NCBI RefSeq assembly: GCF_000332315.1
Contig: NZ_KB235944.1
Span: 305,947-352,239, forward strand
DNA length: 46,293 nt
Reading direction: 5' to 3'
Source: Prochlorothrix hollandica PCC 9006 = CALU 1027
GTDB taxonomy: Bacteria; Cyanobacteriota; Cyanobacteriia; Prochlorotrichales; Prochlorotrichaceae
The notes beneath the pieces were generated by a model that worked only from the letters and a program-made list of their open reading frames with translations, did not search any database and was not told where the DNA came from. The translations under genes and the position numbers were made by a program. Below, one piece after another: positions 4,656-37,774 of the stretch (position 1 is the stretch's first letter; each line of letters starts with the position of its first letter).

Positions 4656-4748
4656 GGTGATTCAGGTAACGGTAATTCGGGTAACGCTGTTATCAACCAA
4701 TTCTAATGGGGTGTGATGGCTTGCGATCGACGATCGTCGATCGTCGAT

Positions 4749-5077
4749 CGTAGGTTGGGTAGAGGAACGAAACCCAACAAGGGACCTATCAATAGGCAGA
4801 TGTGGGGGCGATCGCCCAATGGCTCGTTGGGTTTCGCCCGGTCGGTTGGGGCGGTGTGCCTGGGGTCTTGGGCAGCTCAACCCAACCTACGGTTGCTACG
4901 ATTGCGAGATCGTAGGTTGGGTAGAGGAACGAAACCCAACAAGGGACCTATCAATAGGCAGATGTGGGGGCGATCGCCCAATGGCTCGTTGGGTTTCGCC
5001 CGATCGGTTGGGGCGGTGTGCCTGGGGTCTTGGGCAGATCAACCCAACCTATAATGGCTCAACCCAACCTACGGTTG
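4749..5077. repeat. Tandem duplication (162-bp period) of a TAGGTTGGGT palindromic repeat
   Basis: Two nearly identical copies start at 4749 and 4911 (CGTAGGTTGGGTAGAGGAAC), each ending in CAACCCAACCT. A third partial end, CTCAACCCAACCTACGG, lies at about 5056-5072. Each copy is an imperfect palindrome: TAGGTTGGGT pairs with ACCCAACCTA, and AACCCAAC with GTTGGGTT. A shorter relative sits at 16969-17043. The spacer just before it (4725-4750) is a run of GATCGTCGATCG units. The copies differ at about three positions, so the duplication is recent. Confidence 0.8.
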
Positions 5078-5655: not shown

Positions 5656-8600
5656 CTAGGGGGTGGCAGGGGCTGGGGGATCGGGCACACCATAGCCAGT
5701 AAAATCGGCGGGATCATAGCCAATATCCCCCACAAAACAGAAGGATAGGGTGAGGTAAAAGGTGGCTCGATCGACGCGGAACCGAAACCCCAGCGTATTT
5801 TTGAGATCACTTTCAAAGCGTCGCCACTCCCGCAGCACATGGGGATCGACGGTGCCGGGGGCGGGTTTGAGGGAGGGGCTGATGTCCTGCCAGTTCACGG
5901 TTAGAGATTGATCCCGCGCCTCGATCGCCGTTTCCTCGAAGCAAGTATCCAACTCCCCAAACAGATCCCGCATAAAGTCGGGGTAGCGACCCGACAGGGC
6001 CAGAAAAACCATGACAACTCGCTTGCTTTCGGCATCCGGCTCCCCCCGTTTGGCCCAAATCGCTTTAAGGATTTTGTAGATATTAATCAGCCGTTTAGCG
6101 GTACGGGGAGTGATATCGACGTAATTGCAGCAGGTGACCAATAGCTCAAATTCAGCTTGATCTAACACGGTGACTTCGGCGATCGTTTCCAAATAGCTGT
6201 CATCGGCCCTCAGAGGCAAGTCTGGCACCGGCACCTCGTCGGGCAAGGTTAAGCTGGTTTGCTCCATCTGTTGGTATTGGCCTAACCCTTGCTGACTAAA
6301 CCCTTGCTGACTAAACCCTTGCTGACTAAACCCTTGCGAATCGAGGGACTGCTGGCCTAGATCGGCATTAGTCCAGGGTAGGAGGGACTGTTGCACCTGG
6401 TCTTGCACCGATTGCTGGAACTGCTGGGTTTGTTGCTGAATCTGCTGGGTTTGTTGGGCCAAAGATTGAGCATGGGGGAGGGGATCGATGCCCTCCGGGG
6501 TGGCTGGGGCTGGGAACGGCGATCGCCCCCCTTTCGCCATCATCCCGATCGCCGTGGCCGTTGCCCCTTCATCCCGGCGATAGTCCACTTGGGACGCTAA
6601 ATAGGATTCCACATTGAGGGGAGAAATGGGGCGCATTCGGTAGGGAATTTGGATAATTTTCTCCAAGTAATCCATCCCTGAGGGTTTGCCCCGCCGTTTG
6701 AGAACGCCCTGGTACACATCTTCCAGGGCGCGGGCAATGTAGCGATCGTCAATGGCCACAACCACAATAAATAACTTGGTTTTGACCAGTAATTGGATGG
6801 CTTCTAAGACTTCCACCACCCGATCGGGGGGACAGCGGTCTAAATCGTCAATATACAGCACCACCCGCGCTTCACCCCTGGGAAATAACTGTTGCTTTTG
6901 GGCTTGGAGGTCAGGGGAATCATCGGGGTTAATGACCAGGCGATCGCTCAAGGCTTCGATGTCCTGGCGCACCTGATGAATGATGCCCAACTGTTCTTGG
7001 TAGGGGTTACTTTGGAGGCGATCGCTCACAAATTCTGTTAGGGATGAGTAATCCCCCGCAAGGCTGATGTGGTTGCGCCGTTCTGCTAGTTCTGCCTTTT
7101 TCTTGTTGATTTTCTGTTCTAGATCTTTCGTTTTTTCGGCGCGTTGAGCATCAATGAGGGATTGGCGATAACTGACTAATTGGTCTTGGTGCGCTTGTAA
7201 CCGTGCCTGATACTGAACCCATAGCTCCTGGACTTTTCGCCGGTGTTGTTTCCAGATGGTTCGTGCCTTTTGATACAGGGGAATGCCCGCTGCAACGAGG
7301 GGAGTGTTGGCCATCACAGCCATGAACCGTTCCCCAATTCTGCCGCCCCAGCCAGCAAGCCCATCCACCAGTAAGGGCGTTGAGAGGGCCAGCACCACTG
7401 CGACCAAAAATCCCAGGACTAACCAGGGGTTTTGGCGATAGGTCTTGATCACGCTACGCCAAAAGTCGGGTTGCAATTCTTCGAGAACAGCTTTAACTTC
7501 CGCCGTTTTAACGGGATCAGCGGCCAGTAACTTGTCCCGTAGGTCATCCGCCCCTTGCCCCAGGAGATCTTGCCACGTCTCCTTCATGGGTTTCATCGCT
7601 TCTTTGCAGGCAATTTTTAATAGTTCTCGATCGGCCTCTGCTTCAATCTCAGCCATCTGCTGTTGTAACTGGGCTTCCAACTCCGCCACCGTTTTCTCGG
7701 CGGTTTTGAGGTCTTCCCCCTCTTGGGTTTGCAGCCGATCCAGATGTTGCCAGAGGGCGGCGGTGCGCTGGTTGGTGATGGCTTGCCAGTCTTGCCAGAG
7801 GCGGGGACTGAGGTGATTTTCCAATAAAGCACGGCGTTGCTCCTCCCCCATGGTGTTGAGGGCTTGCCAAATATCGCCCCCTTGCAGTTGGTTCACTCCC
7901 GCCTGTTCCAATTGCTGCTCTAGGCTGATTTGGCGGTTTAATTCCTGGAAAATGGTCTCCATGAGGCTGGCCCACAGATTAGCTTTGGCGTAGCTCCAGG
8001 CATCAAAGCGAATCTGGTAAATATGGCCCACATAGGGCGATCGTAGCTCCCGATCGTCCCCCCAGGCTTGGGCCGATTGCAGGGGTTGGCTGCGAATGGC
8101 GTTGATGCGCTGTTGCATCAGGTGCATGGCGAAGGATTTGCCGCTGCCCCAACTGCCCAAAATCCCCACGGCCAAGGGCGGTTGCAGTTGCCGCAACATC
8201 AAAATACTGGTGAGGGCATCCAGTTCGTCTTGAATCAGCAGCCGGTCTTCTCCTTCGGCCAGGTCGTTGCTCAAGCTCTGGGGAACAGCCAAAGTCCCCA
8301 CCTTCCCCCACAACCGAATCGTTTTGTCACCACTGCCGGAAACGATGCGCGAACCATCGGGGCTAAAGGCCACTGACCTGACACGATCCGAATGGCCCTG
8401 GAACGGCTCTCCGATGGGGTTACCCTGCAAATCCCACAGCCGAATCGTGTTGTCACCACTGCCGGAAACGATGCGCGAACCATCGGGGCTAAAGGCCACT
8501 GACTCTACAGCATCCGAATGCCCCTGGAACGGCTCCCCGATGGGGTTACCCTGCAAATCCCACAGCCGAATCGTTTTGTCCTTACTGCCGGAAACGATGC

Positions 8601-9069
8601 ACGAACCATCGGGGCTAAAGGCCACTGAGGTAACATAATAATCTGAATGCCCCTGGAACGGCTCCCCCTCCAAGATGGGGTTACCCTGCAAATCCCACAG
8701 CCGAATCGTTTTGGCAGAACCGCCGGAAACGATGCGCGAACCATCGGGGCTAAAGGCCACTGAACAGACAGATGAATAGACATTACCCGACCCCCACACC
8801 CTCTTCCCCATGGGGTTACCCTGCAAATCCCACAGCCGAATCGTTTTGTCATCACTGCCGGAAACGATGCGCGAACCATCGGGGCTAAAGGCCACGGATG
8901 TGACAGGAGCCGAATGGCCCTGGAAGATGCGGCTGGTGTAGCGGGGGGCAGGGGAGGGGGCAGTTTTGGAGGAGGGGGGAGGCGCGGTCATGGGTAATTG
9001 GGGGCGATCGGTCTGCCTGCCCATTGTAGGCGCTGGTTGTGGCCTAATGCTGCCTGGGTTGAACCCCAT
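5656..9069 (-). CDS. WD40-repeat / KAP-family P-loop NTPase fusion, membrane-anchored
   Basis: This 1137-residue protein starts with a Pro-rich segment (1-45). Five WD40 repeats follow at about 48-255, almost identical to each other ([26 protein letters not shown]). The KAP NTPase begins with Walker A GSWGSGKS at about 305-312, and the Walker B region [12 protein letters not shown] is at about 738-750. Between them lie coiled-coil segments and a hydrophobic span at about 546-568, with a second weaker one near 590. This matches KAP ATPases, whose P-loop domain is interrupted by transmembrane helices. A Gln-rich stretch near 870-930 contains the pentapeptide QQGFS three times. KAP proteins include the phage-exclusion protein PifA and animal Kidins220. 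Function here is inferred only: signalling or defence at the membrane. M16 and M27 are alternative starts. The gene lies 49 bp behind the FHA gene. Confidence 0.85.
6277..6336 (-). repeat. In-frame 15-bp array in the NTPase gene (QQGFS pentapeptides)
   Basis: The unit CTGACTAAACCCTTG (plus strand) occurs three times exactly at 6292-6336, preceded by a partial unit. On the coding strand it gives QQGFS pentapeptides in a Gln-rich linker, downstream of the Walker B region. Confidence 0.85.
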
Positions 9070-9118: not shown

Positions 9119-12100
9119 TTAGCCGATCGGGACCCCAGCCCCCAGATCGATCGTCCCCAAGGTAAATTCAACCGCTGGCACCTCCAGCAGCACATTATCC
9201 CCCAGGGACAGGGATCCCGTCCCCAGAGACGCTTTGATGTGAACCCGCTTAATGCGGCCATTTTGCATTTCAATCGTGGCCTTAGACAGGCGCAGGCTGA
9301 AATTAATGGGGAACTCAAAGGAACCCAGGCTTTGCTCTTTGAATTGGGGTTCGATCGTCGAAGTTTGGGAAATGGCCACCTCATGATCCGCCAAGGGGAT
9401 CGCCAGCATAAAGCTGGAACTATGGAGAGCGCGATCGCGGTAGTCGATGATTTCCTTAGCATTACCCCAAATCAGGCCCAAAATATCCCGACCCACCGAG
9501 ATATTGTCCAGGGCTTCATTCATCTTCTCCACCATCCCCACCATGGCCGCATCAAAGAACATGGCCGGCAGACCCGCCGCCTTTTCCTCTAGCTGACGTT
9601 TGATTTGGGCCTTGATTTGGGCTTTGATCAGGCTATCTTCTGTTTCCTCTTCCGTTTCCTCTGCTGTCTCGGCTGCTGTCTCGGCTGCTGTCTCGGCTGC
9701 TGCCGCAGTTTTTGCCTCAGTTTCTGCCCCGGCTGCTGCTGCGGACTCTGCACCATCAGCCTCCGCCTCTTCCCCATCTCCTAACCCCAAGCGTTCCTTG
9801 AGGTTAAAGAAATCAGCCAGGGTGGGCTTGAGGATAGGCGGGGTGTCGGTATCGAGGGAGGTTGAGACTGTGGCATCAGTCAGGGGGGCGATCGTGGCCT
9901 CTCCTGTCTCTGGATCAACTCCCATCCCTGCCTCTGCCGTGATGGAGTTAGCTTCCGAGGTCTCTGCCCCCAGATCTGGGCTACGCTTACCGAGCACCGC
10001 ACTGGCTCCCATCACAGCCGTTACAGCGGCAGCAGTGGCCGCGACGGTGGTTGCAGCGGTGTTAAACAGGGATTGATCCCCGATATCCATACTATAGAGG
10101 GTTAGGTCATCCGTATCGACCCGATTCAAGCTAAATTCCAATGCACCCAAATCCATGGTGGCTACAACGGAGAAATCGAGATTGAAGGTATTGTTTTGCA
10201 GACTTTGTTGAATCGCGTTCTGGAGGCTGGGAGTCAGGAGGTTGGCACCATTGCCACCACTGGAGGCGGCTTGGCCCCCGGCTTGGCCTGCATTGGCTCC
10301 GGCAGCGTTGGCACTGGCGGCTTGACTGGCGGCTTGACTGGCGGCTTGACCCCCTGCTTGCCCCCCTGAGAGGAGACCTTGGACGCTGGAGGCGATGCTC
10401 TGACCGGCGCTGGTCAACCCTTGGCCCAGGCTGGAAACGCCTTGGCTAATGGCACTGGTAGCACTGCCCACCCCACCACTGACTGCACTACTGGCGGCAC
10501 CGGCGGCGCTGCTGACTCCGGCCCCGATCGCCGCAACACCCCCGGCCACACTGGCTCCGACGGCGGCGGCAGCACCGGTGGCCACTGCTGCGGCAACAGC
10601 ACCCAGGGCAGCGACGGCTACCCCAACGGCGATCGCGGTGGTGGCGGCAGGACTCAAGCCTTCAGCGGTTTCCGATCCCAGGGCAGAACTCCCCCCGGCT
10701 GAGGCGACCCGATCGGCGAACCCATCACTACTGGATCCGCCACTGGATCCGTCACTAGATCCACCACTAGATCCCGTGCCACTGGAGCCAGTCCCACCCC
10801 CCGCAGCAGCACTGGTTCCGGTACCGCCATTGGTTTCGGCCCCGATCGCGCCAGCTTCAGAACCGGGGGCACTGGCGATCGCTGTCCCTGCCCCCGCTGA
10901 GCCAGCCCCGGCCCCCCCACTGCTTGCACCTGAGGCTCCGGTAGCTCCACCAGAACCAGAACCAGATCCGCTAGCACCAGAACCCGCACCAGCACCAGCA
11001 CCAGCACCAGATCCGCTAGCACCAGAAGCCCCGGCACTACTAACCGCTGAGGCTGCACCGGAAGTCCCAGCCCCCGCTGAGCCAGCCCCAGACCCCCCAC
11101 TGCTTGCACCTGAGGCTCCGGTAGCTGCACCAGAACCCGCACCAGCACCAGAACCCGCACCAGAACCAGCGCTAGCGCCAGCACTAGAACCAGAACCGGC
11201 ACCAGAACCAGATCCGCTAGCACCAGAAGCCCCGGCACTGCTAACCGCTGAGGCTGCACCGGAAGTCCCTGCCCCCGCCGAGCCAGCCCCTGAAGTCCCT
11301 GCACTGGCCGCAGTCCCAGCCCCCGCCGAACCAGCCCCAGATCCTTCTGCACTGCTCCTGATATCTGTGGTGCCGCTACTGTTGAGGGTTAGCCCCTGGG
11401 AACCCGTCACTGTGTTGTTGAGGTTGAGGTTCGCCCCTGCTAGGGTAACGGACTGGGTATTAACGGTAGCCGCGTCATTAAGGGTTAAATTACCCGTTGT
11501 TGTGATATTGGCATCCAGGTTCGTGGTACCTGGAGCATCGATGGTTAAGCTGGCAACGGTTACGGCTCCATTAATATCTGTGGTGCCGCTGCTGTTGAGG
11601 GTTAAAGCTTGGTTGCCGTTTATGGTGCTACCCAGTGTCAGGTTCCCCCCGTTAGCATTAAGAACTACCTGGCCAGTAATGGCATCTAAGGTAACGGCAT
11701 CATTGAGGGTCAGATTGCCGGTCGTGGTGAGGTTAGCCCCCACTTGCGTGCTACCAGCCCCATCGGTGGTTAAGCTGCCTAAGCTCACTGTTGCATTAAT
11801 ATCTGTAACCCCAGAACTATTGAGGGTTAGCCCCTGGGAACCCGTCACTGTGCTGTTGAGGTTGAGATTCGCCCCTGCTAGGGTAACGGACTGGGTATTA
11901 ACGGTAGCCGCGTCATTAAGGGTTAAATTACCCGTTGTTGTGATGTTGGCATCCAGGTTCGTGGTACCTGGAGCATCGGTGGTTAAGCTGGCAACGGTGA
12001 CTGCTCCATTAATATCTGTGGTGCCGCTGCTGTTGAGGGTTAAAGCTTGGTTGCCGTTTATGGTGCTACCCAGTGTCAGGTTCCCCCCGTTAGCATTAAG

Positions 12101-15100
12101 AACTACCTGGCCAGTAATGGCATCTAAGGTAACGGCATCATTGAGGGTCAGATTGCCGGTCGTGGTGAGGTTAGCCCCCACTTGCGTGCTACCAGCCCCA
12201 TCGGTGGTTAAGCTGCCTAAGCTCACTGTTGCATTAATATCTGTAACCCCAGAACTATTGAGGGTTAGCCCCTGGGAACCCGTCACTGTGTTGTTGAGGT
12301 TGAGATTCGCCCCTGCTAGGGTAACGGACTGGGTATTAACGGTAGCCGCGTCATTAAGGGTTAAATTACCCGTTGTTGTGATGTTGGCATCCAGGTTGGT
12401 GGTACCTGGCTCATCGGTGGTTAAGCTGGCAACGGTTGTGACTCCATTGATAGTCGTTACACCCGCACTATTGAGGGTCAGGCCAAAGGCACCATCAACC
12501 GTATTGTTGAGAGTCAAACTGCCGCCGCCCAAGGTAATATCCCCCAGCAAGGTCAGTGCCCCATTAAAGGTTTGCGCCCCCGTCGTGGTCAGATTGACCG
12601 CAAGGCTTGTAGCCCCGCCCACGGTCAGGCTAGCCGCTGTCAGGCTCCCGTTGGCTTGCACCGTTAACCCGTCCAGCAGTACCGAACCACTGGCATTCAG
12701 GCTACCATTGGCCAAAATCAAGCTTCCACCCGTCAGACTGACCAAACTCACAGGATCTCCGGCTAAATCAAAGGTAACCGTGTTATTCCCCGGAATCACC
12801 ACATTGGCAACATTGGCCAGTTCAGGAACCACCCCCCGCGCCGCCAAGTTAGCAGTCGGTGCCCAATTATTGGGGTCAAACCACTGCCCCGTGGTGTCCC
12901 CAACCCAAGTGGCCGAGTCCAGGGGCGTAATATCAGCCGTGACGGAACCCGACAAAACATAGTTAAAAGCTCGGCTACCGTTCAGGGCCAGGGAAACCGC
13001 TTGGTTATCCCCAACATTCTTACTGCCAAAGCTGCCCACCACCTCAATATTGGCTCGATCGCCCGCCGCAATTTGATCCGTAAAGGGCGTGTCCAGGGTA
13101 AAACTGGCGGCAACGGAACCATCATAGGCTTTGGCATTGGCGCTGAGGCCCGTGGCGGTCAGCGGCTTCGGGTCAATGGTGAGGGTGGCCCCGGTCGAGG
13201 CGCTATTGAGGGTGTAGGCTTGGCTCAGGGTTGGGGACAGAATCGGGCGGATGGCGCTGTAGGTTCCTGCATCCACAAAGGACGTAATCGGCTGCCCGTT
13301 CCACTCAAAGGTATAGTTAACCGTGCTGCCATCCTGCACATTCAGGGTCGTCCCATCCACATTGAGGCGCAGTTGACCGAAAAGGGCAGCCAAATTCACC
13401 AGAGTGCCGTCATAAACCGTCGCCGCAGCATTGGACAACGCCCCCGACACCAAAAAATCATAGGTGGTATCCACAGGAGTGGTGGTGCCCCCAGAGGATT
13501 GGACCACATCTTGAATCACTGAATTAATGGTGGCAGCGGGGGCAGCGGTGTAATACCAGGTGAAACCCGCTTCGCTACCAGGGGCAATATCCCCTAGGCT
13601 GTTGTACAGCGCATAGGAACCGTCGCCCGTCACTTGAATGGTGGCGCTGGCCGGGTTCACTCTGGTGGCATTGGTAAAACTACAGCAACCAGCATGGGTA
13701 CCTCTGACGGAGGAATCCGTAGAATAAAAGAGAACCGATGCCCCACTGGACGCGCCGCTCACCTCATCAACCCGCAGTACATTGGCAGCATCCCCCACCT
13801 GCGTAATCGCCGTAAATCCACTACCGGTGAGGTTCCCCAGCGTCTTCGTGGGACCATCGGTCTGACCAACCCAATCATCCTGGGTTCCGGTCCAGAGGCC
13901 CACATTTTGTAAGGTCGTCGTCGTGGCCCGAATGGAGGTTGTTGCCGCTAGAAAAGAGTCACCCGATCCCAGGCTGTACTGGTTCGTGATGAGCGCAGGA
14001 CTGCCGCCAATGGTAATCGGGACAACGGACTCAATCACGCCGGAACCCTTGGGACCGCCCCCTGGCCCTGAACCCACCCCAGGGCGATACCCCCCAATTT
14101 CCAGGTAGCCACCGGGCTGGACGGTATAGGTTCCCCCCTGCGTACTCGCAAAGTTCGTTTCGATGTTGCCATTCCAACGGGATCCCCTAGTACCGGTGCC
14201 AACCTCAAGGTTGAGGGGATAACTGGAAAAGGTCAGTTTGTAATAGCCATTACGACCCGTCGTGACATTATCGAAATAGTTGGGCTGGGTTAGTAACCCT
14301 TGGGGATTGACAGCAGCAGTATTAGCAGCAGCGGGAGCATTTTGGGCACCACCGTTGATCGTACCAAAGGAGAGGTAGCCGTTGTTGAGGACCAATTGAT
14401 TAACTGTGCCGCTGGATCCCTTCTGCCAAGTAAATGCCGTAGTAGCAGTGGTTTGGTTCCCTGTGGGTAAGGGAATCTGGATACTAACTCCATCGGCCAC
14501 GGTGTAGGAGGAGCCGCTACCGTCGGTTGTGCCTTGACCAAAGGCGGCGCGCAGAGCACCAGTTCCTGTGATGGTGAGATCGGCATTAATCTGGAGATTA
14601 CGAGTTGCCAGTAGGGTTAACTGGTTCGCAGACCAACTGAGGGCACCATTCACCGTAATATCGCCATTGCCGCCACTGCCCGTGGTTTGAATCACCAGGG
14701 ATCCCGTATTTTTGAGGAAGGTGGAAATGTGATTGGCGTAAATGGTGTTGGCATTGGTGGGGCTACCGCTGATGGGTGGACCGGAACCGGCAGCGATCGT
14801 AATATCATTGGGATCAAACACCAGCGTCCCCGCCCCCCCCTGGGGAGCCGCCAGATCGACGCGGTTATACCAGTCACTGACCAAATTAAGGGTCTCCTTG
14901 CCCGACAGATCAATCAATCCGCCATTTCCACCCAAATCTCCGCCCCTGGCGCTAGCCTCACCCCAAAACGCCAACTCATCCTCCGCAATAATCCGGGCCT
15001 CACCCCCATCCCCCAAAATCAGCGCATCCACATTCACCGTTCCCGCCAAGGCAATATCCCCGGCCCCCGTTGGCAACGGCTGAGTTGAACCCCTCAAAGA

Positions 15101-15955
15101 CACCGTACCATCGGCATTGACCACCAAAGCCGTGGCATGATGGAGATTCCCCCCCGTCAGCAGTTGGGGCAAATCCAGGGGCGTTAAGGTTTCCGGCAGC
15201 AGATTCAGACCTAGGGCTGAGCCATCTGTGGCGAGGGGTTCGATTTCCAAGCCTAGGACCATGCCCGCTTGCTCTAGGCGCACCACCCCCGCATCCGGGA
15301 CCGCCTTCAGATTCACAAAACCACCGGGGGCCGTCAGCGATCCCGTGTTGACCACCGTCCCCCCCACCAGGGTCAGGCTCTGGCCCGCTGGGACTTCTAA
15401 GGCTCCTTCGTTGACGATCGTCCCCTGGCCCACCTGGGTAAAGGCAAAGCGGTTGGGACTGCCCACCAGGCTCCCATAGTCGTTGCTCCCCACCCCATTA
15501 AACCAACCGTTCTCGAAGCCGATGGCCGTGGCCGTGGTGGCCGTAAAGGATCCCCCCAAATCCAAGCGCCCCTGGGGACCAAACACCACCCCCGCCGGAT
15601 TCATCAAATATAAGTTGGCATTGCTGTTACTCACCTGGAGCAAGCCATTGATAATGGAAACCTCTCCCCCCGTCACCCGTCCCAAGATATTGGCTAAGTC
15701 CGGGGAACCGATAAAGTTAGCCACTTGATCGCTGTTTAAACCAAACTGTTCAAAGCTATGGAACAGGTTTTGGCCCGATCGACTGCCTCCCGTAATCTCA
15801 AAGCCATTACCGCTGACACTAACCTGGGTTTGGGTTCCATCCCCTGCCGGTAGAATGGACTGAGCCTGCGCCAGGGTTGTGAAGGTCAGTCCTAGACCTG
15901 TCGCATACAGAAGGGGCAGAAAAATGCGATGGGGCGTAGGAGAGTGATAATCCAT
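9119..15955 (-). CDS. Filamentous-haemagglutinin-type secreted protein (TpsA-like), giant repeat protein
   Basis: About 2278 residues from the ATG at 15955, chosen because AAGGAA lies 12 bases upstream and a signal peptide starts there (hydrophobic 11-28, ending TTLAQA). A longer frame to 16114 would add 53 residues, including KAALQ repeats. The two-partner-secretion (FHA N-terminal) domain follows, with SNANLYLMNPAGVVFGP at about 111-127. Beta-helix-like repeats continue, with a YDG/MBG-type segment (LSANAKAYDGSVAASF) near 930-1010. Then come 2.5 copies of a 146-residue repeat (about 1168-1531), an Ala/Gly/Ser-only tract (about 1535-1755), a small-residue hydrophobic stretch (about 1770-1830), an Ala/Glu-rich helix (about 2060-2120) and a unique C-terminal 150 residues. 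Such proteins are exported through a TpsB outer-membrane pore as adhesins; no TpsB gene is in the window. Confidence 0.85.
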   Translation of the reverse strand: MDYHSPTPHRIFLPLLYATGLGLTFTTLAQAQSILPAGDGTQTQVSVSGNGFEITGGSRSGQNLFHSFEQFGLNSDQVANFIGSPDLANILGRVTGGEVSIINGLLQVSNSNANLYLMNPAGVVFGPQGRLDLGGSFTATTATAIGFENGWFNGVGSNDYGSLVGSPNRFAFTQVGQGTIVNEGALEVPAGQSLTLVGGTVVNTGSLTAPGGFVNLKAVPDAGVVRLEQAGMVLGLEIEPLATDGSALGLNLLPETLTPLDLPQLLTGGNLHHATALVVNADGTVSLRGSTQPLPTGAGDIALAGTVNVDALILGDGGEARIIAEDELAFWGEASARGGDLGGNGGLIDLSGKETLNLVSDWYNRVDLAAPQGGAGTLVFDPNDITIAAGSGPPISGSPTNANTIYANHISTFLKNTGSLVIQTTGSGGNGDITVNGALSWSANQLTLLATRNLQINADLTITGTGALRAAFGQGTTDGSGSSYTVADGVSIQIPLPTGNQTTATTAFTWQKGSSGTVNQLVLNNGYLSFGTINGGAQNAPAAANTAAVNPQGLLTQPNYFDNVTTGRNGYYKLTFSSYPLNLEVGTGTRGSRWNGNIETNFASTQGGTYTVQPGGYLEIGGYRPGVGSGPGGGPKGSGVIESVVPITIGGSPALITNQYSLGSGDSFLAATTSIRATTTTLQNVGLWTGTQDDWVGQTDGPTKTLGNLTGSGFTAITQVGDAANVLRVDEVSGASSGASVLFYSTDSSVRGTHAGCCSFTNATRVNPASATIQVTGDGSYALYNSLGDIAPGSEAGFTWYYTAAPAATINSVIQDVVQSSGGTTTPVDTTYDFLVSGALSNAAATVYDGTLVNLAALFGQLRLNVDGTTLNVQDGSTVNYTFEWNGQPITSFVDAGTYSAIRPILSPTLSQAYTLNSASTGATLTIDPKPLTATGLSANAKAYDGSVAASFTLDTPFTDQIAAGDRANIEVVGSFGSKNVGDNQAVSLALNGSRAFNYVLSGSVTADITPLDSATWVGDTTGQWFDPNNWAPTANLAARGVVPELANVANVVIPGNNTVTFDLAGDPVSLVSLTGGSLILANGSLNASGSVLLDGLTVQANGSLTAASLTVGGATSLAVNLTTTGAQTFNGALTLLGDITLGGGSLTLNNTVDGAFGLTLNSAGVTTINGVTTVASLTTDEPGTTNLDANITTTGNLTLNDAATVNTQSVTLAGANLNLNNTVTGSQGLTLNSSGVTDINATVSLGSLTTDGAGSTQVGANLTTTGNLTLNDAVTLDAITGQVVLNANGGNLTLGSTINGNQALTLNSSGTTDINGAVTVASLTTDAPGTTNLDANITTTGNLTLNDAATVNTQSVTLAGANLNLNSTVTGSQGLTLNSSGVTDINATVSLGSLTTDGAGSTQVGANLTTTGNLTLNDAVTLDAITGQVVLNANGGNLTLGSTINGNQALTLNSSGTTDINGAVTVASLTIDAPGTTNLDANITTTGNLTLNDAATVNTQSVTLAGANLNLNNTVTGSQGLTLNSSGTTDIRSSAEGSGAGSAGAGTAASAGTSGAGSAGAGTSGAASAVSSAGASGASGSGSGAGSGSSAGASAGSGAGSGAGAGSGAATGASGASSGGSGAGSAGAGTSGAASAVSSAGASGASGSGAGAGAGAGSGASGSGSGSGGATGASGASSGGAGAGSAGAGTAIASAPGSEAGAIGAETNGGTGTSAAAGGGTGSSGTGSSGGSSDGSSGGSSSDGFADRVASAGGSSALGSETAEGLSPAATTAIAVGVAVAALGAVAAAVATGAAAAVGASVAGGVAAIGAGVSSAAGAASSAVSGGVGSATSAISQGVSSLGQGLTSAGQSIASSVQGLLSGGQAGGQAASQAASQAASANAAGANAGQAGGQAASSGGNGANLLTPSLQNAIQQSLQNNTFNLDFSVVATMDLGALEFSLNRVDTDDLTLYSMDIGDQSLFNTAATTVAATAAAVTAVMGASAVLGKRSPDLGAETSEANSITAEAGMGVDPETGEATIAPLTDATVSTSLDTDTPPILKPTLADFFNLKERLGLGDGEEAEADGAESAAAAGAETEAKTAAAAETAAETAAETAEETEEETEDSLIKAQIKAQIKRQLEEKAAGLPAMFFDAAMVGMVEKMNEALDNISVGRDILGLIWGNAKEIIDYRDRALHSSSFMLAIPLADHEVAISQTSTIEPQFKEQSLGSFEFPINFSLRLSKATIEMQNGRIKRVHIKASLGTGSLSLGDNVLLEVPAVEFTLGTIDLGAGVPIG
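10690..11345 (-). repeat. Ala/Gly/Ser low-complexity coding tract
   Basis: About 220 consecutive codons use almost only Ala, Gly, Ser and a few Thr, in short motifs such as GAGSGAGS and AGASGASGSG. An inner block of about 180-190 bp (ending at about 11106 and 11293) is repeated with small changes. The tract lies between the 146-residue repeats and a hydrophobic glycine-alanine stretch, like a flexible stalk. Confidence 0.8.
11361..12460 (-). repeat. 438-bp direct tandem repeat within the FHA-type gene (about 2.5 copies)
   Basis: The plus-strand string ATATCTGT followed by the GGGTTAGCCCCTGGGAACC block begins at 11361, 11799 and 12237, so the period is exactly 438 bp (146 codons). The first two copies are nearly identical and the third is partial, grading into diverged repeats by about 12460. 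Each unit contains shorter internal repeats (TTTGNLTLNDA, LTLNSSG), as in a beta-helix built by duplication. Confidence 0.9.
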
Positions 15956-15998
15956 GGGAAATTTCCTTAAAGCTGTTGATAAAGTAGTGCTTGCTGCC

Positions 15999-16058
15999 TG
16001 TAGAGCAGCCTTCTGTAGAGCAGCCTTCTGTAGAGCAGCCTTCTGTAGAGCAGCCTTA
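15999..16058. repeat. 15-bp tandem array TGTAGAGCAGCCTTC, four exact units
   Basis: Four identical 15-bp units lie 44-103 bp upstream of the chosen FHA start. If translation began at 16114 they would encode KAALQ pentapeptides ahead of the signal peptide; with the start at 15955 they belong to the leader. The ribosome site and signal peptide favour the second reading. Confidence 0.85.
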
Positions 16059-16114
16059 AGGGCCGTTGGCAACGGAAAACACCCCCCCGACTCCCTGAAG
16101 CAGGCGGACAGCAT

Positions 16115-27796: not shown

Positions 27797-27904
27797 GGGT
27801 ACCGCAGTAGGGGGAGATGATGTCCACTATATCGCCAATCCCTAGGCTAACTGGACCCGCACTCCAGGGCAAAACCTGAACAGTCGTACATGGGGGAAGA
27901 TGTA

Positions 27905-29524
27905 ATGCTCTTAGATAATCGCTATCAAATTTTACGATCCCTGGGGTCTGGCGGCTTCGGAGAGGCGCTGCTGGCGGAAGATACACAGATGCCGTCACGG
28001 CGACGCTGTGTCATTAAAAAACTGCATCCCGTCAACAATGATCCCCAGATTTATAGCATCATTCGCGATCGCTTCCAACGGGAAGCTGCCATCCTGGAAG
28101 ATCTGGGCAAACATGATCAAATCCCCACCCTCTATGCCTATTTTGAGGAAGACGGCAATTTCTATTTAGCCCAAGAACTGATCGACGGCCAATCCCTGAC
28201 CGAGCTGATGCGATCCCAGGGCATTTGCAGCGAAGCCTATGTGCGGGATTTTTTGACTAGCGCCCTGGGGATTCTGGAATATGTCCACGCAAAACGCATT
28301 ATTCACCGGGATATCAACCCCAATAATATTATTGTGCGGGAACGGGATCATCGCCCCGTGCTCATTGACTTTGGGGCCGTGAAGGAACTGATGAGCAGCG
28401 CCATCACCCTAGAGGGCCAAGTCACGGCCTCGATCGTCATTGGTACACCGGGCTTTATGTCTTCGGAACAGGCCGCAGGGCGACCGATCTATAGCAGCGA
28501 TCTCTATGCCCTCGCCCTGACCGCCATTTATCTGTTGACCCAACGCCTACCCCAAAGCCTGGAAATTAATAATGCCACGGGGGAAATTCTCTGGAGTCAC
28601 TATTGTCCAAGCCTCAGCCCCACCCTCATTGCCATTCTCAAGCAAGCGGTGGATCCCAATCCCCGCGATCGCTATGGCACTGCCACCCTGATGCGGGAAG
28701 CCCTCGTCCAGGGCAGCACCGTACCCGCAACGGCGGAACTGTCTCCCTCAGGGTCAATGCCTCCCCGTTCTCCAGCCCCTGGATCCACGGTTCTCTCCTC
28801 TGCACCCTCTGGCCCAAACCCGGCAGGCCCAACGCTAGCTTCAAGCACCTCCCCATCGCCAGGGAATGACTGGCAAAAGACCCTGGTCATTGCTGGCTCA
28901 ACGGTGTTTGCGATTTTAGTGGGGTTTTGGATGTTGAGCCGATCCCAATCCACGACCGTCGTCGTAGACCCTTCCCCCACGCCGCTGCCCTCCACCGACA
29001 GTACCCCCGAACTCACCCCAACGCCGGTGCCAGAAACCCCAGCCCCCACACCAACGCCGGTGCCAGAAACCCCAGCCCCCACACCACCTCCAGAAACCCC
29101 AGCCCCTACTCCCACTATCTCGTCCGCAGGCTCAACTACCTTGAGCAACGAATATCAAGAGCAGGTGCAGACCCAGCTAAGCGTTGCACGGTTGGCCCTA
29201 GGTCTAGAGGATTATGAAGATAGCTATGACAGTTACATCAGTGCCATCGAAGGGGGCAGTCTGGAGACCTTAAATTTACCGTTGGATGCTGGGAATACCT
29301 ATTCCATCGTGGGGGTCTGTGACGTAGATTGTAGCGATTTAGACCTGACGTTATATGACGACAATGGCAATCAAATTGATGAAGATCAGGAAAGCGATGA
29401 CTACCCGATCGTAACGGTGGAACCCTCCTGGAGTGCCACCTTTCGTTTAGATGCCACCATGTACCAATGTGACACCGCCACCTGTGTTTATGGCATTGGC
29501 GTGTTTAGAAAACCAGTGCCCTAA
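27905..29524 (+). CDS. Membrane Ser/Thr protein kinase with extracytoplasmic sensor-like domain
   Basis: A Hanks-type kinase domain covers about residues 1-265: glycine loop GSGGFGEALLAED, the ATP-binding Lys in CVIKKLHP, HRDINPNN (His134) and DFGAVKE (Asp155), then GTPGFMSSEQ. The usual Lys after HRD is Asn here; I recall similar substitutions in a cyanobacterial kinase subgroup, so activity is still likely. A juxtamembrane Pro/Ser linker is followed by one membrane helix (TLVIAGSTVFAILVGFWML, about 325-345). A Pro/Thr-rich stalk with TPVPETPAP repeats leads to a C-terminal beta-sandwich domain with Cys pairs (GVCDVDCSDLDLTLYDDNG). I chose the ATG at 27905 because GGGGGAAG precedes it; an ATG at 27890 adds five residues. 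The last 4 bp overlap the convergent zinc-ribbon gene. Confidence 0.88.
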   Translation: MLLDNRYQILRSLGSGGFGEALLAEDTQMPSRRRCVIKKLHPVNNDPQIYSIIRDRFQREAAILEDLGKHDQIPTLYAYFEEDGNFYLAQELIDGQSLTELMRSQGICSEAYVRDFLTSALGILEYVHAKRIIHRDINPNNIIVRERDHRPVLIDFGAVKELMSSAITLEGQVTASIVIGTPGFMSSEQAAGRPIYSSDLYALALTAIYLLTQRLPQSLEINNATGEILWSHYCPSLSPTLIAILKQAVDPNPRDRYGTATLMREALVQGSTVPATAELSPSGSMPPRSPAPGSTVLSSAPSGPNPAGPTLASSTSPSPGNDWQKTLVIAGSTVFAILVGFWMLSRSQSTTVVVDPSPTPLPSTDSTPELTPTPVPETPAPTPTPVPETPAPTPPPETPAPTPTISSAGSTTLSNEYQEQVQTQLSVARLALGLEDYEDSYDSYISAIEGGSLETLNLPLDAGNTYSIVGVCDVDCSDLDLTLYDDNGNQIDEDQESDDYPIVTVEPSWSATFRLDATMYQCDTATCVYGIGVFRKPVP

Positions 29525-35686: not shown

Positions 35687-37774
35687 ATGGCCTACAAAGA
35701 CGCACAACGGAAGATTGCCCAAGCGAAGGCGGAAGGCTGGACGGAACTGGATCTAGCGGGGCTGGAGTTGGAGGCGTTGCCCCCGGAACTGTGGGCGTTG
35801 GAGCAGTTGGAAGTGTTGGTGCTGGGGAAATGGGTTAATGGTAAAGGCTCTGTAGGGAATCAACTGAGCAGTCTGTCCCCCGAAATCGGTCAACTCAACA
35901 GCCTCAAACACCTTGCCCTCATCAGAAATCAACTGAGCAGTCTGCCCCCCGAAATCGGTCAACTTAACAGCCTCAAACACCTTGACTTAAGCGTCAATAA
36001 ACTGAGAAGTCTGCCACCCGAATTCGGACAACTCAACAGCCTCAAACACCTTTACCTCGACTCCAATAAACTGAGCAGTCTGCCCCCCGAATTCGTCCAA
36101 CTCAACAACCTCCAACACCTTGTCCTAAGCTCCAATCAACTGAGTAGTCTGCCACTCGAATTCGTCCAACTCAACAGCCTCCAACACCTTGACCTCAGTT
36201 CCAATCAACTGAGCAGTCTGCCCCCCGAAATCGGCCAACTCAACAGCCTCCAACACCTTGTCCTAAGCTCCAATAAACTGAGCAGCCTGCCCCCCGAATT
36301 CGTCCAACTCAACAGCCTCGAATACCTTGACCTCATCGACAATAAACTGAAAAATCTGCCACCCGAAATCGTCAAACTCACCCACATCCAAGAGCTTTAC
36401 CTCAGCGAAAATAAACTGAGCAGTCTGCCACCCGAAATTGGTCAACTCACCCACATCCAAGAGCTTTACCTCAGCGACAATAAACTGAGCAGTCTGCCAC
36501 CCGAAATCGGTCAACTCAACAGTCTCCACTTGCTTGACCTCAGCGACAATAAACTGAGCAGTCTGCCACCCGAAATCGGTCAACTCAACAGCCTCCACTT
36601 GCTTGACCTCAGCGACAATAAACTGAGCAGTCTGCCACCCGAATTCGGTCAACTCAACAGCCTCCAAGACCTTGCCCTAAACTCCAATAAATTGAGAAGT
36701 CTTCCCCCTGAATTTTTCCAACTCACCAATCTCCAAGATCTTAGTCTCGGCGAAAATAAACTGAGAAGTCTTCCCCCTGAAATTGTCAAACTCACCAGCC
36801 TCCAAGACCTTTACCTCCACTCCAATAAATTGAGCAGTCTGCCACCCGAATTCGGACAACTCAACAGCATCAAACACCTTTACCTCGACTCCAATAAACT
36901 GAGCAGTATTCCCCCTGAAGTTTTCCAACTCACCAACCTCCAACAACTTAACCTCAACTTCAATAAATTGAGCAGTCTTCCCCCCGAAATCGGTCAACTT
37001 AACAGCATCCAAAGGCTTGACCTTACCGCCAATCAACTGAGCACTCTGCCACCCGAAATCGGACAACTCAACAGCCTCCAACACCTTGACCTCAGCTCCA
37101 ATCAACTAAGTAGTTTGCCACCCGAAATCGGTCAACTCAATAACCTCCAAAAGCTTTACGTCAGAGGCAATCAACTAAGTAGTTTGCCACCCGAAATCGG
37201 TCAACTCAACAGCCTCCACTTGCTTGACCTAAGCTCCAATCAACTGAGCAGTTTTCCCTCCGAAATCGGACAACTCAACAGCCTCCAACACCTTGACTTC
37301 GGATCCAGTCAACTGAGCAGTCTGCCACCCGAAATCGGACAACTCAACAGCCTCCAACACCTTGACTTCCGCTCCAATCAACTGAGCAGTCTGCCACCCG
37401 AATTTGGTCAACTTAAAAGCCTTCAACACCTTGACTTTCGCTCCAATCAACTGAGCAGTCTGCCACCCGAATTCGGTCAACTTAAAAGCCTCCAAAGGCT
37501 TAACCTCAGCTATAATCAACTGAGCAGTCTGCCACCCGAATTCGGACAACTCAACAGCCTCCAAGGGCTTGACCTCAGCTACAATCAACTGAGCAGTCTG
37601 CCACCCGAAATCGGACAACTCAACAGCCTCCAAGGGCTTGACCTCAGCTACAATCAACTGAGCAGTCTACCACCCGAAATCAGTCAACTCAAAAACCTCC
37701 AACAAATTGTCCTCAACAACAATCAACTTAGCAATCTGCACCTCAAAATCGGTAACCGTTCATGGAGAGTATAA
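35687..37774 (+). CDS. Leucine-rich-repeat protein, 27 near-identical repeats, C-terminally truncated
   Basis: The 695-residue protein has an N-terminal cap (MAYKDAQRKIAQAKAEGWTE) like that of bacterial Roco/COR-type LRR proteins, then 27 consecutive repeats of exactly 23 residues. A typical unit is LPPEIGQLNSLQHLDLSSNQ followed by LSS (residues 63-683). The repeats are close to identical in DNA as well, so the array expands or homogenises by recombination. The last unit breaks at LHLKIG, and the last residues (NRSWRV) are encoded by an inverted-repeat element at 37751. Roco relatives would continue with a GTPase; none follows here. Function unknown: probably a protein-binding solenoid in the cytosol. 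No signal peptide is present. Confidence 0.82.
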   Translation: MAYKDAQRKIAQAKAEGWTELDLAGLELEALPPELWALEQLEVLVLGKWVNGKGSVGNQLSSLSPEIGQLNSLKHLALIRNQLSSLPPEIGQLNSLKHLDLSVNKLRSLPPEFGQLNSLKHLYLDSNKLSSLPPEFVQLNNLQHLVLSSNQLSSLPLEFVQLNSLQHLDLSSNQLSSLPPEIGQLNSLQHLVLSSNKLSSLPPEFVQLNSLEYLDLIDNKLKNLPPEIVKLTHIQELYLSENKLSSLPPEIGQLTHIQELYLSDNKLSSLPPEIGQLNSLHLLDLSDNKLSSLPPEIGQLNSLHLLDLSDNKLSSLPPEFGQLNSLQDLALNSNKLRSLPPEFFQLTNLQDLSLGENKLRSLPPEIVKLTSLQDLYLHSNKLSSLPPEFGQLNSIKHLYLDSNKLSSIPPEVFQLTNLQQLNLNFNKLSSLPPEIGQLNSIQRLDLTANQLSTLPPEIGQLNSLQHLDLSSNQLSSLPPEIGQLNNLQKLYVRGNQLSSLPPEIGQLNSLHLLDLSSNQLSSFPSEIGQLNSLQHLDFGSSQLSSLPPEIGQLNSLQHLDFRSNQLSSLPPEFGQLKSLQHLDFRSNQLSSLPPEFGQLKSLQRLNLSYNQLSSLPPEFGQLNSLQGLDLSYNQLSSLPPEIGQLNSLQGLDLSYNQLSSLPPEISQLKNLQQIVLNNNQLSNLHLKIGNRSWRV

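Follow-up and report, generated by a model that had tools for sequence, protein, structure and literature searches.

A WD40 array fused to a membrane KAP NTPase in Prochlorothrix hollandica: blade turnover, variable top-face codons and a putative receptor role

The DNA analysed here, referred to as the window, is a stretch of 46,293 nucleotides from contig NZ_KB235944.1 of Prochlorothrix hollandica PCC 9006 = CALU 1027 (positions 305,947 to 352,239), the only representative of its family in the set of genomes compared. Since the window encodes PsbO, the filament integrity protein FraC and a thylakoid formation protein, the host can be described as a photosynthetic, probably filamentous cyanobacterium. 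The subject of this study is a reverse-strand open reading frame at positions 5656-9069 (ATG start at 9069, stop codon included at 5656; no N in the region), whose 1137-residue product joins WD40 blades to a KAP NTPase. A preliminary description of the locus had read this frame as one gene with five blades, a Walker A and a Walker B motif, and membrane-spanning material between the two motifs. Each of these elements was recovered. The Pfam scan identified five WD40 stretches (E 1.7e-62), the same number as a purpose-built hidden Markov model (HMM), while KAP_NTPase (PF07693) scored 114.4 bits against a cut-off of 20 (E 7.6e-33). Hydropathy analysis placed a hydrophobic span between Walker A and Walker B, the layout characteristic of KAP proteins.

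The blades occupy residues 49-258 (8296-8925; this and the following features are all on the reverse strand). Blades 1 (8806-8925), 2 (8674-8784) and 3 (8536-8658) were delimited with the HMM, the second having a divergent d-a loop without GH; blades 4 (8410-8529) and 5 (8296-8403) were delimited by DNA comparison, the last one continuing into the KAP domain. The latter (residues 280-1003; 6061-8232) includes a long coiled-coil and membrane insert. Its Walker A motif, GSWGSGKS, lies at residues 305-312 (8134-8157), and the Walker B motif at residues 736-745 (6835-6864), within a core that is 98-100% conserved in orthologues of close relatives; the next strand of the NTPase core follows at 6724-6765. 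The predicted membrane span covers residues 550-568 (7366-7422; Kyte-Doolittle mean 2.66 over 19 residues), and a weaker hydrophobic segment at residues 583-598 (7276-7323), under the scan threshold, is a possible second span. A Gln-rich linker (6388-6468), whose equivalent is variable in relatives, connects the NTPase core to a C-terminal helical part (residues 962-1137; 5659-6186) that alignment shows to be common to this KAP clade.

Over 126 nt, the DNA of blades 4 and 5 is 93% identical, and the longest exact repeat in the array measures 54 nt. The remaining blades show 60-75% ungapped DNA identity to the reference copy, because the spacing between blades differs by 9 nt at two places; in the gap-free 31-codon core, mean pairwise identity is 0.857. 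The blades had originally been called nearly identical. This holds for the blade scaffold but not at four key surface positions, where the residues differ in every blade (PTDK, SCSK, YTKK, AEGN and RRGK). The mean best DNA identity of the blades is 0.886 within the gene, and comparison with the other genes examined gave no value above 0.774. Being nearest to one another, the blades have undergone recent homogenisation or expansion within the gene, as first proposed. An exchange of blades with another gene of the host genome, for a caspase/WD40 NTPase, was considered in view of their 81-87% protein identity, but DNA identity to that gene (0.774) is not separable from identity to KAP relatives (0.766). 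The caspase-like protein, encoded on host contig C1 (L030:5132-8206), bears five WD40 blades that closely resemble one another and, in its middle, an NTPase region of Walker type. Blades of this type recur 5-6 kb away in a disrupted array next to N runs (L030:13095-14087).

In the WD40 repeats of Podospora HNWD genes, positive selection acts at codons 7, 9, 25 and 27, which lie on the top face and flank the conserved codons 8 and 26 (Paoletti et al., PMC1805685). These correspond to codons 6, 8, 24 and 26 in the present numbering, the offset of one being taken from our own alignment on the conserved V and D found between the members of each pair. The offset was fixed after the per-position entropy table had been seen and was thus not blind; the four-site set itself came from the Podospora study. 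Codons 6, 8, 24 and 26 are four of the five positions, out of 34, with the highest nonsynonymous difference (pN) between blades of one gene, and only 2 of 46,376 four-site sets have a mean pN as high. The ratio of nonsynonymous to synonymous difference (pN/pS) is 1.35 at the four codons (0.98-1.88 when genes are bootstrapped), compared with 0.39 (0.32-0.47) for the remaining sites. By these measures, diversification at the four codons follows the HNWD pattern.

Variation between alleles is best seen in two genomes (G051 and G143) that share a syntenic block in which the flanking proteins are 96-98% identical. Blades 2-7 of the two WD40-KAP proteins are 73% identical (pN 0.174), the membrane inserts 65% (pN 0.208) and the linkers 68% (pN 0.155), whereas the Walker B core is 98% identical (pN 0.012). 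With pN values of 0.007-0.023 in the seven flanking genes, the blades have accumulated roughly ten-fold more amino-acid change. The gene is a mosaic of variable and conserved parts: the KAP core is conserved as expected of a switch, and three parts are variable, namely the blades, the membrane insert and the linker that leads to the C-terminal part. Synonymous change is also raised in blades and insert (0.36-0.42 against 0.13-0.24), suggesting that replacement by divergent alleles contributes besides selection. The prediction that the array forms a fast-changing surface, suited to recognition, was thus borne out both by the contrast between blades and flanking proteins and by the rank of the four top-face codons.

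Blade number changes as well. Between 2 and 14 blades were counted in WD40-KAP relatives, a variability like that of HNWD genes, with the proviso that some arrays in draft assemblies may be collapsed. Sister genes in G144a, G206 and G223 have 3, 12 and 7 blades; the genes of G198 and G037 have 7 and 3, that of G037 having also suffered a deletion between its two Walker motifs. Three closed or near-closed genomes (G051, G143 and G178) have seven blades each. The five blades of the window could conceivably be a seven-blade gene collapsed during assembly, the 5.65-Mb host genome being available as 13 contigs with N runs elsewhere and the repeats sharing up to 54 identical bases. However, the same assembly resolved a 19-blade array with pairs up to 99.2% identical, and the region of the WD40-KAP gene has no N; the five blades are therefore probably real, and the chance of a collapse is very small. 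The long array, of at least 19 homogenised blades, belongs to a 2131-residue frame on host contig C12 (L111, about 57-60 kb) and varies at the same top-face codons.

If real, five blades might be the remnant of a decaying allele, in which blades including the usual divergent first one were lost and a non-functional open array was left behind, as happens by repeat loss in Podospora het-d/het-e. In the best assembled genomes, members of the clade have seven blades, the first of them divergent, and the window copy has five, without that blade; repeat loss is the commonest inactivation of HNWD genes (PMC1805685), and other relatives are clearly broken. We nevertheless regard decay as improbable: the reading frame of 1137 codons is unbroken and retains every KAP motif, blade sites outside the four codons keep a pN/pS of 0.64, and five-blade fragments are known to assemble (PMC6805158).

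Modelling of the array was consistent with the earlier remark that five blades would leave the propeller open. The single-sequence AlphaFold model of residues 1-270 has a mean predicted local distance difference test (pLDDT) score of 78.6, with values mostly above 80 in the blades. Its best matches in the PDB are seven-bladed WRAP designs (root-mean-square deviation 1.1-1.5 for the closest ones) and 6R60 (TMt 0.91), in which two five-blade fragments are assembled. According to the source paper, homo-oligomers arise from WD40 fragments with two to six blades, the five-blade fragment giving the asymmetric dimer seen in 6R60 (PMC6805158). As an open ring, the window array may therefore close by pairing with a second chain. 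A sequence search returned no solved structure for the KAP half.

The distribution of the gene was assessed using the KAP half as query, with a class-wide match threshold of 1e-10 or better. Matches were found in 34 of the 388 class genomes and, within one genus, in 7 of 26, the host genome having a single copy. The WD40-KAP fusion is present in 17 of the 34, a few instances being degenerate or broken; in all, several copies of the KAP gene in relatives are broken. Distant KAP relatives occur in 78 plasmid records, and a scan of genome contigs gave a single distant relative; since none of 50,697 phage records matched the KAP half, a phage origin was rejected. A WD40-KAP fusion with another blade type (VAVTPDGTRIV) exists outside cyanobacteria, on Pseudonocardia plasmid p1 (L109:2225-6106). 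On a Rhizobium plasmid (L107:2708-8456) a KAP gene has directly after it, and overlapping with it, genes for a SIR2-like (SIR2_2) protein and a nucleoside deoxyribosyltransferase, the three likely forming an operon. The preliminary description had named a fixed housekeeping locus with an invariant propeller in most cyanobacteria as the finding that would tell against its proposal. Such a locus was rejected: the gene is sporadic, its neighbours are not conserved, no locus is common across the class and the propeller varies. No partner gene conserved beside WD40-KAP was found across the relatives compared.

These data bear on the idea that the protein is a membrane signalling scaffold of ordinary physiology, laid out like Kidins220/ARMS. 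Kidins220/ARMS is an animal signalling protein with ankyrin repeats, and its single chain likewise combines repeats, a KAP domain and membrane spans; the likeness in broad layout, the conserved Walker core and the ordinary gene neighbours in most genomes would all suit a scaffold. Much less expected of one are a presence that is sporadic even inside one genus, the turnover of blades, a level of amino-acid change in them about ten times that of the flanking genes, the replacement of N-terminal modules described below and the broken copies, so that we hold this explanation to be quite unlikely. To our knowledge, Kidins220/ARMS itself is neither sporadic nor module-swapping.

In one relative the gene is carried by a transposon. 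On contig C68 of G206, the gene for a KAP protein with twelve blades follows the type V-K genes TnsB (E 4.4e-214), TnsC and TniQ, and approximately 10 kb past it lie Cas12k (E 1e-261) and a CRISPR-like array, whose five repeats are spaced at 72-74 nt (L069:7390-12423, L069:12683-19345 and L117:13088-15841). The gene thus occupies the place of cargo in a CRISPR-associated transposon (CAST) of type V-K. Defence genes are abundant in Tn7-like cargo (PMC8649781), and CAST carriage gives an independent reason to consider a defence role. In G223 (L063:1530-11076), TnsB-TnsC-TniQ genes lie beside a seven-blade WD40-KAP copy broken by an in-frame TAG, with a tyrosine recombinase on the opposite side.

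The KAP core also carries modules other than WD40. Frames around the class hits were extracted, front modules being assigned by Pfam and blades counted with the HMM. At the same KAP junction were found TIR_2 (E 1.2e-26), caspase C14 (1.5e-19, plus two weaker matches), PNP_UDP_1 (1.2e-24), PG_binding with a weak Macro match, and long arrays of repeats of about 30 residues, which match no Pfam family and are labelled helical from a reading of their sequence. In a tree of the KAP core, the versions with a TIR, caspase or helical front group in a single clade (support 100/100), indicating that front modules have been exchanged on one core. Nine changes of module label are required on this tree, where the minimum possible is six; the window protein has no firm placement in it because its branch is long. 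The TIR-KAP and caspase-KAP fusions lie at L082:7700-10687 and L077:7256-10978, respectively, and the caspase of the second also gives a sub-threshold match to the NCBIfam model for EACC1-associated caspases.

Caspase, TIR and phosphorylase modules are typical of cell-death systems, and their presence in sister proteins brings to mind a different role for the WD40-KAP protein, that of a self-recognition or programmed-cell-death receptor of the filament, in which WD40 would sense a changed self or neighbour protein and KAP would trigger death or arrest, as in fungal HET-E. The variable positions map just as they do in HET-D/HET-E, the allorecognition receptors of fungi, and the genome encodes the filament integrity protein FraC. 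Nonetheless, bacterial conflict systems built from such parts are mostly thought to be directed at invaders, and a position in transposon cargo also fits defence. We therefore view a self-recognition role as unlikely, though worth entertaining.

In the window, the gene is surrounded by adhesin, cupin/ARD, rhodanese and AI-2E transporter genes, without qatBCD. The adhesin, filamentous-haemagglutinin-like by our reading of its sequence, has 2331 residues with internal repeats; its gene (9119-16114) is on the same strand, about 50 bases ahead of the WD40-KAP gene. No RNA families and no promoter or terminator signals above chance were detected around the latter. A PD-T4-6 match at 27890-29521 was rejected as a known defence system, the product being a generic Ser/Thr kinase. 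Elsewhere in the window are a gene for a 695-residue protein made almost wholly of leucine-rich repeats (35687-37771, forward strand) and two 144-nt direct repeats, 99% identical and 162 bases apart from start to start (4746-5051).

The explanation that we favour, and consider somewhat probable, is that the WD40-KAP protein is a stand-alone, membrane-anchored receptor resembling nucleotide-binding leucine-rich repeat (NLR) receptors, with a KAP switch, a WD40 sensor and abortive infection as the most likely output. The KAP NTPase would be the switch, held on the cytoplasmic face by the membrane helices inserted in its domain, and the N-terminal WD40 array would be the sensor, its top face bearing the residues that differ between blades. 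The presumed ligand is another protein, most probably one that an invader such as a phage brings in, or else an altered self protein. Tmn, a single-gene membrane KAP system, blocks phages (PMC11846954), and QatA, the KAP protein of a tested defence system, forms heptamers or octamers (PMC13279940). By extension from these two proteins, ligand recognition would release the switch, NTP-bound KAP units would oligomerise at the membrane and a membrane effect would follow. Given that the WD40 form has no fused or neighbouring effector, the output would most likely be membrane damage or arrest brought about by the KAP/membrane part itself, an output to which single-gene KAP defence proteins such as Tmn point.

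Several observations weigh against this receptor. The window is not a defence island: among 16 other proteins scanned in it, the sole strong PADLOC match is the Ser/Thr kinase. Most relatives have ordinary, non-conserved neighbours and, transposon components aside, defence models matched few of the 119 neighbouring proteins scanned. The confidence interval of pN/pS at the four codons reaches down to 0.98, and such ratios can be raised artificially when blades recombine with one another. Other homogenised WD40 arrays of the host genome, including that of the caspase/WD40 NTPase protein, vary at the same top-face codons, and non-homogenised arrays do so weakly; this variability is therefore a property of the array type, not of KAP. 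In sister proteins, TIR, caspase and phosphorylase modules that look like outputs sit at the place of WD40, which could accordingly be an effector-recruiting adaptor and not a sensor. Finally, the full-length single-sequence model is unusable (pLDDT 42.6). The evolutionary predictions made at the outset for the sensor-switch (blade turnover, homogenisation, variable surface) were largely borne out, and its role in defence is putative.

More tentatively, with a chance that we put a little short of even, one KAP switch core may define a class of membrane-anchored NLR-like bacterial receptors, which would swap WD40, helical-repeat, TIR, caspase and phosphorylase fronts, diversify by blade turnover and by selection at the four codons of HET-E, and spread in part as CAST cargo. 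If true, this would be a bacterial case of Podospora-style allorecognition evolution, on a different NTPase.

Among known KAP NTPases, PifA, QatA, Tmn and PDC-S20 resemble the window protein in the NTPase core, the Walker motifs and the membrane helices inserted in the domain; the window protein differs in having an N-terminal WD40 array and in belonging to a separate cyanobacterial clade. Identity with QatA or PifA was rejected, both matches being partial: the NCBIfam QatA model (NF041923) gave 87.1 bits against a cut-off of 600, and the best stretch of similarity to PifA covers profile positions 107-253 of 720 (E 5.4e-9). The PDC-S20 match is likewise partial and far below membership, and the protein matched no Tmn profile among the PADLOC models, a set that was not checked for such a profile. 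The KAP relatives with measured defence activity, Tmn and QatABCD, appear distant from the window protein.

The fungal HNWD proteins (HET-D, HET-E and HET-R, of NACHT-WD40 type) share with it homogenised 42-residue repeats, a variable repeat number and the same four variable codons. They have a STAND/NACHT switch, C-terminal WD40 repeats and an N-terminal effector, in contrast to the membrane KAP, N-terminal WD40 and absence of a fused effector in the window protein, and the likeness is likely convergent. No STAND domain is found among the 25 Pfam families listed of 41; the NTPase of the window protein is KAP. Repetitive WD40 propellers have been described on cyanobacterial STAND ATPases, and a role in innate immunity has been argued for them (PMC9218822). 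These WRAP or highly repetitive prokaryotic WD40 proteins, frequent in cyanobacteria and putatively immune, also have near-identical blades (PMC9218822, PMC6805158), but they have STAND instead of KAP, and their blades are C-terminal to the NTPase.

That KAP can stand in for STAND in conflict systems is already known: in the ternary and effector-associated domain (EAD)-linked systems of multicellular bacteria it can displace STAND, alongside caspase and similar effectors (PMC8195603). The passage on KAP in that paper does not describe WD40-KAP fusions with swapped front modules, blade turnover or hypervariable sites. KAP has also been listed among hypermutated sensor proteins (PMC10907252). 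A WD40-KAP family with the dynamics reported here looks undescribed in the literature searched, which did not extend to the founding KAP paper (Genome Biol 2004, 5:R30). The WD40-KAP protein joins two lines that are usually separate, the KAP NTPases such as PifA, Tmn and QatA, whose triggers are mostly unknown, and the repeat receptors that diversify like immune receptors; its variable blade face provides a direct handle on a KAP ligand.

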